Assembly: GCA_029706075.1 (NCBI GenBank) | Contig: JAINUG010000135.1 | Coordinates: 248,001-312,000, forward strand | Direction: 5' to 3' | DNA from: Aldrovandia affinis | Taxonomy: Eukaryota; Chordata; Actinopteri; Notacanthiformes; Halosauridae | Length of the DNA: 64,000 nt | In this document: piece after piece, positions 35,074-40,605 of the stretch | How the letters are laid out: every line of letters begins with the position of its first letter | Numbering within the stretch: the first letter of the stretch is position 1 | Program-made: the position numbers and the translations under genes | The notes under the pieces: generated by a model | Told to the model about the DNA's origin: nothing | Database searches by the model: none | What the model saw: only the letters and a program-made list of their open reading frames with translations

Positions 35074-35155
35074 GTTTATCCATTGTATTACCGGAGCTGT
35101 AGAACACGATGCCACGCTGAATGCTGGCACCTGCCCTGGCGGAGACGCAGTGGCG
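35074..35155 (-). other. Coding-like duplicated segment, copy A
   Basis: About 80 bp that is duplicated at 35648-35729. On the minus strand both copies stay open. Copy A reads RAGASIQRGIVFYSSGNTMD and copy B reads EAGASIQCDIVFYSSGNTIE. Several of the differences fall at third codon positions (AGC/AGT, GGT/GGC, ACA/ACG). This pattern suggests descent from a coding sequence. I do not recognise the protein. It may be part of an unidentified transposon. Confidence 0.5.
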
Positions 35156-35647: not shown

Positions 35648-35793
35648 GATTTTTCTATCGTATTGCCGGAGCTGTAGAACACGATGTCACACTGAATACT
35701 GGCACCTGCCTCGGTGGAGATGTCTGCCCTGGACTCTGCAGTCCGTGGAAACGGATTCCCTGACAACAAAGGCTCAACATTACTTCTCTCCAT
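35611..35793 (-). other. Open frame containing duplicated segment, copy B
   Basis: A 60-codon minus-strand frame starts MERSNVEPLLSGNPFPRTAE, runs through the duplicated EAGASIQCDIVFYSSGNTIE segment, and ends SSTQTDSGTEWL before a stop. No splice sites or known domain were recognised. It may be a fragment of a transposon protein or a decayed gene. The similarity to copy A at 35074-35155 is the only support for coding history. Confidence 0.35.
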
Positions 35794-36761
35794 CTCTGAT
35801 TGTTTGCTTTGACCTGCGACGGCAAGTGTGCGCCTCTCCGCCTTCCGCGTCCATTGCCGGAGATTTCAGCGTCAATGCCAACAAAAGCAATGCAGCAGCG
35901 CAGCTTGTCAGTTTCTCATGCGCAGTGTGTTGTTCAGTGTGACAAAGTACATAAAGGAAAACTTAAACTTAACTGGTGGAAGAGCAGCTTCAGCGATCAG
36001 CCACTCACAAATGATAGCTTTCCTATGCAGAACAAACAGCAAACCGTCTCTCATACAAACGATACCACACACATGCCTATCCATAGGACCTCAGGCACCA
36101 GCTGACCCTTTCCAAAAAGCACCTGACGTCAATATGTGTTTTATATTTGGGGGTCCCTGTTTTTATTCTTTTCATATTGTTTTCTCTTTTTTATTTTATA
36201 GTCATGCTTTTTTTTCTCTTTCTTTTTCTTTTGCAACCTCAATCATTGTGTAGCACAATGACAATTTCAGTAAAGTACTACGATAAAAGAAGAGGCAGTA
36301 GTGTCATAACCGTTGGGTCAACTCGTTCCCCCAAAGACAATAAACACAATCAACAAAAAAAAGAGAAAACTAAACAAACACAAAACAAAACTAAATTAGC
36401 AAGAAAGACAAGAATCCAGAAATTACAACAACAATAATAAACGAACAAGAAATACAGATTACGATAAAAGATGACAAGTCTGAATTTAAATAAATAAATA
36501 ATAAAATAAATAAATACAAAACACAGCAAGAAAACAAACAAACAACGCACAGATACATTAAGGAACAACATATGAGTTCAAGATATAAGTTGAGAAAAAA
36601 CCCAAACAAAGCAAGAAGCAAAAATGCCCTATCCTATCTCCTCATTGCTACTTTAGTCCTTCCCAGCCCTCATATTGACTTAATATTTCCCATTTTTTGG
36701 TTAAGCTATCCCTCTCATCTTCCCCGGCAATAATCCCTTCCAACATGTAATTTTATTTCAC
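35794..36761. other. Unassigned sequence with A-rich tract
   Basis: Positions 36335-36600 are A-rich on the + strand (AAACAAA and AAATAAATAA words). A pyrimidine-rich stretch lies at 36165-36240. No gene is recognised. Confidence 0.4.
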
Positions 36762-38752
36762 ATTTTTTTTTTTTTTTTTTTTTTTACATTTAGCTCATTA
36801 ACATTTTGTGATTTAAAAATGAAAGCCTTGGTCAGAAGTATTAGTATATTGTGCAACATATTACAGTCAATGCTAAAATCACCCAGCACTACAGCTTCAG
36901 GTGAAGACCTAAAATTATTTGTTATGGGGCCTATCCATGTTTGTAGTGACGTCCAGAACTGTGCTACTACAGGACAACACCAAAAAAGATGTAATAAATC
37001 TTCTCCACAGAAGTGGCAACTTCTAGAGCCCTCAATACCCCAAATATTAAGCATTTTCCTTGTAGGAAGAAATGTATAAATAATCTTTATCTGGAACATG
37101 GGTAATTTAGAGTCTACTGTTGTATTATAAATCAAATTAAACACTTTGTTCCAGGGAATAGGAATATCAAATTGTTCCTCCCAGAAGTTACAAAACAGCA
37201 CTCAAATTCCTTCCATGCAAGAAAAAAATATGCACTTTTATTTCTTTCTTTATTTATTGTTACCTTTTTTCCATTTAACAGGAATTGCTTCCAGAAGTTG
37301 GTTGTATTGATGCAAAGTGCACAATTTCCCAAAGACGTCACACAAAGTTTTGAAGTCATAAAAACACCCATTTAAATCAATCAGATCATTCAAAAATGTA
37401 ATTTCCTTTTTAATAAAGGTCAACCAAAATAAAGGTTTTCCCTTTATCAGTATATTTGAATTTAACCATAATGTCTGACTTAAGATCTCAATTGGCCTTT
37501 CAGGCGGATGGTATTGGAAGTGCAACCATGCCATTATTGATTCATTTGTAAAGATTCAGACATTTCTTAAAAAGTCCTTAGTAAACCATGATAAGTGTAT
37601 AGCTTCCAGCTGAATACAAGGAAACAGATTTGTTTTTAAAAAATGGTCGAAGGCTTTCTAAAATAAGGCATAAAAGGGGATATGGGGATAAAAATAAATA
37701 GACAAATTGAGACACAACTAAGGTGTTTATTAGGGTCACTCTAACATAAAGAGACATAAAGCTTTCCCACGCCAAGGCAAAACTGTCTTATCAATCTTTG
37801 TAAATTGTTTGTGGAAGTTAAGTTTCACCAACTCAGGACCATCACTCCATCTTACTGGAGCAGAAGAGTATCCTTAAGATACTCATTTATCATAGTCCGG
37901 TCTCAAACCGGATATTACAGAAAAATAATTCAGGTCTTCAATAAGAGCTGCCACCGCTGTTTGTTTAGGTTGTATTAAAAAAGTTTTATCATCAGCATAA
38001 AATTGCATTTTTGTTTCAAATCCATTGATGTTTAATCCTAAAATGTTACTGTTATTTCTAATTCGATTAGCTAACGTTTCTATGGCAACAATAAAAAGAT
38101 ACGGTGAAAGAGGACAACCTTGTCTAACACCCCACATCAGTTCAAAGCTCTCGGATAGAGATACATTGTGGGTTACTTTGCTTCAGGGGGTGTCATATAG
38201 GACTTCAAACCATTGAATAAAGGAAAAAGAAAAGACCAAAAAGAAAAACCAAATCTAAAATTTTGAAGACATCTGTAGATATGATCCCACCTTATTTTAT
38301 CAAAGGCCTTCTCAAAGTCAGCCACAAACATTAACCCCTCCTTTCATTCATTTTCGTAGTAATCAATAGTTTCTAAAACATATTATAAACATATTATCCC
38401 CAATATACCTACCGACAATAAAACCAGATTGTTCTGTGTGTATGATGTGACCAATCACCTTCTTCATTCTGAGAGCCAGACATTTGGACAGGATGCGTAT
38501 ATCGCAGCATAATAAAGTCAAAGGTCTCCAATTTTTTTAATATACAGGATCCTTGTCTTGTCCATTAGCGTCCTGTTTCAATAACAGAGAGATCAACCCC
38601 CTCTATGTGGGAGACAATTAGCCTTGCGCATAAGAATAATTAAAACAAGCAAGAAGCGGGCCTTTAATCTCTGCAAAGAAAGCCTTATCAAATTCAACGG
38701 GAATCCCATCTAGTCCAGGGGATTTGAGGCAACTGAGGCACCAGCAACCACT
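36762..38752 (-). mobile_element. L1/Tx1-clade LINE, 5'-truncated, with poly(A)
   Basis: A retrotransposon lies on the minus strand, with its poly(A) tail seen as a T-run at about 36763-36785. From 5' to 3' the reverse transcriptase pieces are SPGLDGIPVEF (near 38710), FVADFEKAFDKIRWD with a catalytic Asp (near 38310), GVRQGCPLSPYLF (near 38120) and FYADDKTFL with the catalytic YADD (near 38000). The C-terminal cysteine region (SCHFCGEDLLHLFWCCPVV) is near 37000. These pieces are in several frames with stops. The endonuclease and ORF1 are absent because the copy is 5'-truncated. Its 5' edge meets RCC1-like sequence at about 38752. Confidence 0.9.
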
Positions 38753-39440
38753 GCAGCCCAAGCTGAACAGTTCCCCATCCAGAGTCAGCATCACCAGGTG
38801 GTCGTTACCTGATGCGGTTGTGGTTGTGGTCTGCAGAACCTGTTGTGGTTCTGTGTGGCTCAGTAGGTAGAGCATGCCGTTGACACCGCTTAGGTTGTGG
38901 GTTCGATTCCCACTGGGACCACATATACTGAAAAATGTATGCATTCACTACTGTAAGTCGCTTTGGATAAAAGCGTCTCCTAAATGACATATATTATATA
39001 TTATATTTTGCGATTTTAATGACGGGCTTGTCGATGGAGAGTCGGACAGGTGCAGTGCATTTCTCCATGGGTTCCAACAACCCGATCACACCGTTATTGT
39101 CCCTGAAGGAGCCCCCCACACGTAGACGACCCCCTCCTCAGTAAGGGCGGCCGCGTGGCTGTCCCCCGCTGACACCTGCACCAGGCGTTCCCTCAGCTCC
39201 ACCTTCGCCGGGCTGGCCTCTGAGCCCTCCTCCACCACACCCCGCCCCCAGAGCCCCCCCTTGCCACAGCCTGCAGTACCCCCTCTGGCAGGCTGACCAA
39301 AGCGGGCTTCTTCCTCTCCATTATATCCTCCCCTAGTCCCAGCTGGCCAGCTTCACCCTGCCCCAAAACCAGCACCAGCCCCTTCTTCTTCCCATGGCTG
39401 CTGTGGGACACCTTCCCTTTTTTGGAGGATTTTACTATCT
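38753..39440 (-). pseudogene. rcc1: RCC1 retrocopy fragment, intronless and broken
   Basis: On the minus strand this encodes the N-terminal part of RCC1, the chromatin-bound guanine-exchange factor for Ran. Visible segments in order are [58 protein letters not shown], the frameshifted equivalent of the [11 protein letters not shown] region, and SGNDHLVMLTLDGELFSLGC. These cover roughly the first 40% of the seven-bladed propeller in the correct order with no introns, which indicates a reverse-transcribed mRNA. A stretch of about 28 residues in the first blade is deleted, and there are several frameshifts. A SINE (38845-39000) splits the copy. The 3' part of RCC1 is replaced by the LINE. It is not functional. 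Confidence 0.85.
38845..39000 (+). mobile_element. SINE A copy 3, full length, inside the RCC1 retrocopy
   Basis: The tRNA-like acceptor arms GTGGTTC and GGGACCAC pair. Box A is TGGCTCAGTAGG and box B is GGTTCGATTCC. The body atatactgaaaaatgtatgc and tail gtaagtcgctttggataaaa with gcgtctcctaaatg follow. The anticodon loop has mutated to TTGACAC. RCC1-like coding sequence lies on both sides, so the SINE inserted after the retrocopy formed. Confidence 0.9.
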
Positions 39441-40605
39441 TTGTTGAGGTTTACAATCGTGTCAGGTGCCCTCTTAAATAAAAGGGTAATGATAATAATC
39501 CTGGACCTGTGTTGAAGAAGGCATACAGAACCTGCTACGTAATGTGAATGTGCCTCAAGGTTCTGAGCTTAAGCCGGTCAACAGGAGGGTGCTGTAACTG
39601 ATCGTGCTGTACAGCCTCGAGCGACAAACCGTGTGAGAGAGGGAATATTACCTCATGTCCCTCTGCAGGGGGATGGCTGAGTTTATTGGTCAGATATTCC
39701 ATGTGAGATGATGGTGTGTTGGCATTGGTGGCGGTGGCGGTGGTGGTGGTGGTGGTGGTGGGGGGAGTGTTGCAGTGACTCCTACCTGTTGGGTTTATTT
39801 GTGTCTCAGAGGTGTCTGTCCTCACAACTGCCCCCCCCCCCCAAACCTCAACACATGCCCAGTCAGGCAGGTTGGTGCCCTTCTGTTTTTGTTTCCCCAA
39901 GCAACTAACAGCCAGACCACAAGCTCCATCCTTTGTGTGAAAGCTCAGCGGGGGGGGGCGTCTTTTATTAATGCCATTCCTCCGCACCTGTGTCCGCCAC
40001 GCCGTCCAGCCCTGGCGGCACCATGCGCTCGGCGGTGGAGCCCAAACTGGCGATGACAGCCCTCCTGCCACACACCCACGGGCACTGAGAGGGGATTAGC
40101 GAAATATCACCCCGCCTCCCACTGCTGGAGAGCTGGCCTCCGACACGTCTGCCCGGTGCAGCGGCTGCCTTTCATTGTCCCTCTCTGCCACCAGCCTGGC
40201 ATCGACGGCGCTCTGAGACAATTACCAGCCTGCGAACCTCCTCGCGTGGCAGCGGGGCCCTGCTTCTCCTCCCAGGGTGCCTTGGTATTTAAGCAATAAG
40301 GCCTCACACAAGTGTCTGTGGCCGTTTCCGTCTCTCTGCCGCTCGGCCACGTGTCCGCGGTGGCCGAGGCCAGTGTCCAGGCCTGGATGGCCCAGCAGGC
40401 TTGGAGCCTGTCCCGGTTTCCATGGCGTGAAGCAGCAGCACTCGTCCCTGGATAGGCCGCCGTTCCACCACAGGCTCATTACTCACAATCCATCCCTTCG
40501 CACGCCAGCGCTAAGCAGAGAGAGAGGCAGTAGGCACCAGTGTTGAACATGGAAGTTGAACATGCAAACTCCTGGGGACCCTGAACCACGAAACTGCTAT
40601 TTATC
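39441..40605. other. Unassigned, partly GC-rich sequence
   Basis: No conserved protein is recognised although open frames up to 178 codons occur. Positions 39723-39765 are a (GGT)n-like simple repeat. Positions 39960-40470 are GC-rich. Confidence 0.35.

Follow-up and report, generated by a model that had tools for sequence, protein, structure and literature searches.

The window analysed here is a stretch of 64,000 nucleotides of Aldrovandia affinis DNA (contig JAINUG010000135.1, positions 248,001 to 312,000 of the forward strand), and coordinates refer to it unless a contig is named. On its minus strand a processed copy of part of rcc1 is directly followed by the 3' part of a LINE. A SINE lies antisense within the rcc1 copy, a run of A within the LINE and an imperfect direct repeat on either side of the LINE, and the end of a DNA transposon adjoins the rcc1 copy. 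The features, in the reading direction of the minus strand, are as follows.

39428..39479, minus strand: 5' end of a DNA transposon, about 45-50 bp (AGGGCACCTGACACG...), with 82-86% matches at four genomic places
39257..39434, minus strand: first part of the rcc1 retrocopy (spliced nt 47-224: end of exon 1, then exon 2), matching the spliced parent at 161 of 178 bases
39010..39256, minus strand: rcc1 retrocopy, exon 3 (from spliced nt 285) and exon 4, by alignment to the parent's spliced sequence
38843..39004, plus strand: SINE, antisense within the rcc1 copy, with a tRNA-like head and an UnaL2-type LINE 3' tail (RF00436, 66.5 bits; RF00005, 37.2 bits)
38733..38816, minus strand: last part of the rcc1 retrocopy, running from the end of exon 4 through exon 5 into exon 6, of which it holds the first 20 nt (38752-38733), by alignment to the parent
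38727..38752, minus strand: left copy of the LINE's putative target-site duplication, reaching into the end of rcc1, by anchored alignment to 36109-36085
38726..38732, minus strand: seven bases, TTGCCTC, matched to neither rcc1 nor the LINE in alignments to the parent and to LINE copies
36147..38725, minus strand: 5'-truncated LINE, comprising the 3' part of the reverse-transcriptase ORF and the 3' UTR, frames broken, by Pfam and genomic copies
36763..36785, minus strand: run of 23 A within the LINE, by copies that align through it
36110..36146, minus strand: stretch of 37 bases separating the LINE, as far as it is shared with other copies, from the right duplication copy; no other LINE copy aligns beyond 36147
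36085..36109, minus strand: right copy of the putative target-site duplication, by anchored alignment

The rcc1 copy runs from 39434 to 38733. It corresponds to exons 1-6 after splicing (coding nt 47-678) of a parent gene that is present with its introns in the same genome, on C1910, where the exons show splice signals. Copy and spliced parent were identical at 431 of the 493 aligned bases, which bears out the original prediction of an intronless rcc1 piece on the minus strand. By tblastn a human RCC1 query matched with residues 17-76, 92-145 and 141-181 and, after the SINE, up to residue 198 (span 39435-38753), and RCC1 chains were the top PDB matches for both frames of the piece that were searched. 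The exon 1/2 join is contiguous, the parent intron of about 810 bp being missing, as is the exon 3/4 join, which an intron of about 2.5 kb interrupts in the parent; the exon 4/5 join, 8 nt from the break at the SINE, is likewise without an intron. Two internal deletions were found, one of spliced nt 225-284, inside which the exon 2/3 join falls, and one of spliced nt 588-654, which has the exon 5/6 join at its edge, and both sit between short similar stretches. The piece is frameshifted, 5'-truncated and far from its intron-containing parent, and is a dead, decayed and nonfunctional retropseudogene. In the parent (L029/L030) short tandem duplications were seen at the start of exon 5, and tblastn revealed GLSNYHQLG-like repeated units after exon 6.

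A genome search with 39500-39020 returned eight matches. Of the seven beyond the window, two were exons on C1910, one lay on C1458 and the remaining four matched only the sequence 5' of rcc1. The match on C1458 (L031, 4782-5049; 85% identity over 268 bp) is a partial duplicate at the DNA level, unlike the window copy, because exon 2 matches there together with the adjoining intron. Since such duplicates are present in this genome, the window piece could itself be imagined as an unprocessed genomic duplicate of rcc1 that was later hit by the LINE. This is extremely improbable, as the exon 1/2, 3/4 and 4/5 joins are free of introns and alignment to the parent gene revealed no match of the copy to parent intron sequence.

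The rcc1 copy has no poly(A) tail; its match to the parent stops at nt 678 in exon 6, and no A-run is present at the junction. Comparison of its 5' edge with the region after the LINE revealed no target-site duplication of its own above chance. At the 5' end the copy meets the transposon end at a TAAAATC-like stretch common to both (microhomology). A 24-base pattern of this transposon end occurred 79+83 times in the genome at up to three mismatches, against 0 for the control. The ends of the transposon are inverted (AGGGCACCTGACA...TGTCAGGTGCCCT), and at L063 both are present in a copy of about 0.9 kb. Blastn with five copies and this 0.9-kb copy revealed no further transposon piece beside the rcc1 copy in the window. 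A cDNA fragment of rcc1 used as filler in the repair of a broken transposon end, before or together with the arrival of the LINE, would account for a piece that is truncated at both ends, lacks poly(A) and duplication, and adjoins a transposon fragment of about 50 bp at the TAAAATC microhomology with no more of the transposon in the window. However, a plain retrocopy followed by a later deletion explains the same features, and we regard the use as filler as very unlikely.

The SINE within the rcc1 copy resembles tRNA SINEs of the UnaSINE type, which are mobilised by UnaL2, a fish LINE. ARAGORN assigned its head (38847-38922) to tRNA-Val. Relatives lie in the window at 948, 4099 and 44270, and many genomic copies show 93-96% identity. 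The SINE, the two internal rcc1 deletions and the transposon end of about 45-50 bp had escaped the original prediction.

In the LINE, which had been predicted to belong to the L1/Tx1 clade, Pfam identified RVT_1 in the reading frame at 38182-37883 and zf-RVT in that at 37201-36758. Homology with other copies starts only at 38725, in a genome search in which 40 of 1558 candidates were scored and in further alignments. The 5' part of the LINE is thus missing and the LINE shares the minus strand with rcc1, both as had been predicted. At the other end the last base in common with any other copy is 36147: a genomic search with 36320-35950 gave 27 matches, all ending at or before that base and none reaching beyond it. 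Ten copies continue into a further GC-rich and A-rich end, which the window LINE lacks. The element had been thought to end at 36762 with a single poly(A) tail at 36763-36785. This did not hold, because the LINE is shared with its copies as far as 36147 and eight of them (L015, L017, L018, L043, L050, L051, L059 and L061) align continuously across the A-run, four copies (L014, L015, L017 and L018) having ordinary non-poly(A) sequence at its position. Judged by these alignments, the run is internal to the LINE and no tail; the case is a warning that an internal A-run may be mistaken for the tail of a LINE. Recognisable target-site duplications were present in 3 of the 12 other family copies examined and measured 9-11 bp. 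The viral and prokaryote collections contained no useful relatives of the LINE; one Chitinophagaceae contig gave a 19-residue match, and the best tblastx match to the LINE was 16 residues long.

The junction had been placed near 38752; the rcc1 match in fact extends to 38733 and is followed by the seven bases TTGCCTC and by the LINE from 38725. A search of the assembly with 38845-38690 served as the check, proposed with the original prediction, for the same junction elsewhere in the genome, and among the candidates (7 of 7 scored) only the window itself bridges rcc1 and LINE. The 26 nt that end at the LINE start recur beyond its 3' end at 36109-36085, with 21 of 27 columns identical. Of the left copy, 20 of the 26 nt are rcc1 exon 6 and the remainder are six of the seven TTGCCTC bases; these seven bases are probably the end of the left duplication copy. 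Between the two copies there are 3 differences in 24 paired bases and 3 gap columns, and these mismatches and gaps fit the age of the copies.

The significance of the repeat depended on whether its position was taken into account. When the comparison was anchored at the LINE start, 4 of 1468 other window segments and none of 1500 shuffles reached the 24-nt match (to 36107-36085), and the 30-nt match was reached by 0 of 1468 segments and 0 of 1500 shuffles; these figures are somewhat flattering, as the repeat had been noticed before the anchored test was made. When the anchor was slid over 758 positions of the rcc1 copy and the LINE start, the two best were 38727 and 38726, at the junction, followed by their overlapping neighbours. 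Unanchored, the repeat was marginal: under one scoring, 35 of 1000 shuffles did as well, as did 46 of 975 segments, and under a second, 179 of 1000 and 238 of 965. The same anchored test at the rcc1 5' end gave nothing, 364 of 1471 and 461 of 1473 segments doing equally well. The repeat resembles the LINE's own target-site duplication, old and imperfect, made within rcc1 sequence.

The right copy does not directly adjoin the shared LINE sequence, being separated from it by the 37 bases at 36110-36146. These bases do not appear to be a LINE tail, since 36143-36106 was not LINE-like when compared with 10 copies (189-480 of 500 shuffles as good), and an origin as the 3' end of the transposon was not supported against 6 copies. 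The right flank shares GTCAGGTGC with the terminal sequence of the transposon at 3 mismatches, which is the frequency expected by chance (14 matches, 15.9 expected), and it showed no likeness to six fetched places with transposon 3' ends, the scores being reached by 80-157 of 500 random segments. It was thus rejected as the other transposon end. Further along the flank beyond the LINE there is a 71-bp direct repeat (35075-35145 and 35650-35720; 86% identical, 575 bp apart).

The absence of the rcc1 3' half, which had been predicted, was confirmed in the window by tblastn with human RCC1 and by blastn with parent exons 5-7; the last exons (human residues from about 318) were covered by the human protein only, the parent's exons there not having been recovered. 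Beyond the LINE, 38 of 393 segments were as good in a search with a degenerate rcc1 profile and 538 of 1958 in one with parent exons 5-7. The right repeat copy alone had no significant likeness to rcc1 either (38 of 393, and 538 of 1958 in the second test), and no rcc1 follows it as the continuation of an interrupted host sequence, for which an extra deletion must be assumed. A loss on the far side of the LINE has to be assumed whether the LINE was nested in rcc1 or fused to it. As the 3' half of rcc1 and the rest of the transposon are both unfound, the missing half is no argument for a chimera. The half was probably lost before the LINE arrived, because the last six bases of each putative duplication copy, beyond the rcc1 match, are not rcc1.

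The decay of the two parts was also compared. Against a majority consensus of 4-13 copies, the window LINE has diverged at 110 of 1671 positions (6.6%; 4.6-10.1% per block, in five blocks of which two overlap by 31 bases). In rcc1, copy and parent have different bases at 22 of 303 zero-fold sites (7.3%), 19 of 91 two-fold sites and 21 of 91 four-fold sites. The zero-fold change in rcc1, which is mostly the pseudogene's own, is similar to the change in the LINE. Ages of 6.6% and 7.3% are compatible with one event as well as with two events close in time and do not separate the models. The four-fold divergence far exceeds the zero-fold divergence, by more than expected if all change had followed the formation of the pseudogene. 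This suggests an origin of the copied mRNA in an rcc1 lineage that had by then separated from the gene on C1910, or else fast change at CpG-rich third positions.

The original prediction had combined these parts into one chimeric retrocopy. In this model reverse transcription would have begun on LINE RNA, the enzyme would have moved to an rcc1 mRNA as template around nt 678, and a single insertion of the joined cDNA would have followed. Its components (a processed rcc1 piece, a truncated LINE and a unique junction) were found, and the order, the orientation and the direct joining of a 5' mRNA part to a 3' LINE part are as expected from such an event. The similar ages of the parts (110 of 1671 positions in the LINE; 22 of 303 zero-fold sites in rcc1), the lack of rcc1 beyond the LINE and the seven junction bases matched to neither part also agree with it, and chimeras of this kind are described in the available text of PMC13174262 (human) and PMC2104539 (fungus and mammals). 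However, the repeat flanks the LINE alone. The single target-site duplication predicted outside both parts was not seen, none being above chance around rcc1 and LINE together, outside 39440. A duplication at the junction had been named as a sign against a single event, and one is probably present there (38752-38727 and 36109-36085). In addition, the supposed single poly(A) tail is the internal A-run of the LINE, and the rest of the host transposon, which should follow the LINE, was not found, so that a later deletion is needed here too. A chimera would thus call for a template switch in exon 6, seven untemplated bases, the later deletion of the 3' end and duplication with the host transposon, and a 26-nt repeat that is coincidental; we consider this unlikely. 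It is disfavoured rather than excluded, the test being statistical and post hoc and the duplication imperfect. Two independent insertions, which had been mentioned as the simple alternative, are the better-supported reading given the probable target duplication at the junction.

We therefore favour, as the likely explanation, a LINE nested in an already damaged rcc1 retropseudogene, which makes the locus ordinary genomic wreckage and no fused retrocopy. A spliced rcc1 mRNA would have been reverse transcribed and its 5'-truncated cDNA joined to the edge of a DNA transposon, giving the retropseudogene. Its 3' half would have gone by another route, probably a deletion that also removed the rest of the transposon. 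By target-primed reverse transcription the 5'-truncated LINE would then have inserted into exon-6 sequence, right at or very close to the point where the rcc1 copy stops, and have duplicated about 25 bp that now lie on either side of it; the tRNA-derived SINE would also have inserted into the rcc1 part. We infer the order of these events, the deletion and the nature of the repeat as a target-site duplication. Such a nested insertion is supported by the anchored repeat, the exon-6 content of its left copy, the null result at the rcc1 5' end, the duplications in the LINE family and the similar decay of the parts. It requires an extra deletion and a LINE that landed no more than about 25 bp from where the rcc1 match stops. 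Against it also count the marginal repeat in the unanchored test, the lack of significant likeness of the right copy to rcc1, the length of the repeat (about 25 bp, longer than the 9-11 bp family duplications) and the 37 bases before the right copy, which are at odds with target-primed reverse transcription, as this predicts an A-rich tail only.

The locus itself, decayed and nonfunctional, matters little alone. It illustrates how a locus that looks like a template-switch chimera can be reread as a nested insertion with the help of genomic LINE copies and an anchored duplication test. Were it a chimera after all, it would extend LINE template switching to an mRNA beyond the genomes (human, mouse and fungal) covered by the available text of PMC13174262 and PMC2104539, fish cases not having been systematically searched for.

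Among known systems, the rcc1 copy resembles a processed pseudogene, a class with 652 retrocopies listed for zebrafish in the accessible part of PMC3091775, in being intronless, 5'-truncated, frameshifted and distant from its intron-containing parent, but differs in having no 3' half, poly(A) tail or target-site duplication of its own. The SINE joins a tRNA-like head and an RF00436 tail in one unit, like other tRNA SINEs mobilised by UnaL2. For mRNA/LINE chimeras, the available text of PMC13174262 describes 17 human cases in which LINE-1 is fused to an mRNA or lncRNA; most of them involve near full-length LINE-1, and 15 are in sense. That of PMC2104539 sets out how template-switch chimeras can be recognised, direct repeats flanking the whole being one of the marks and full-length 5' parts a common feature. 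As far as these texts go, the window shares with such chimeras a 5' mRNA part directly joined, in the same orientation, to a 5'-truncated LINE 3' part, but it differs in the lack of a duplication flanking the whole, in the 5' truncation of the mRNA part and in the probable duplication at the junction. From a nested retrotransposon insertion it differs in the 37 bases before the right copy and the lack of a clear A tail there, whereas it resembles one in its 5'-truncated LINE and in the apparent duplication of host sequence at the 5' end of the LINE and beyond its 3' end.
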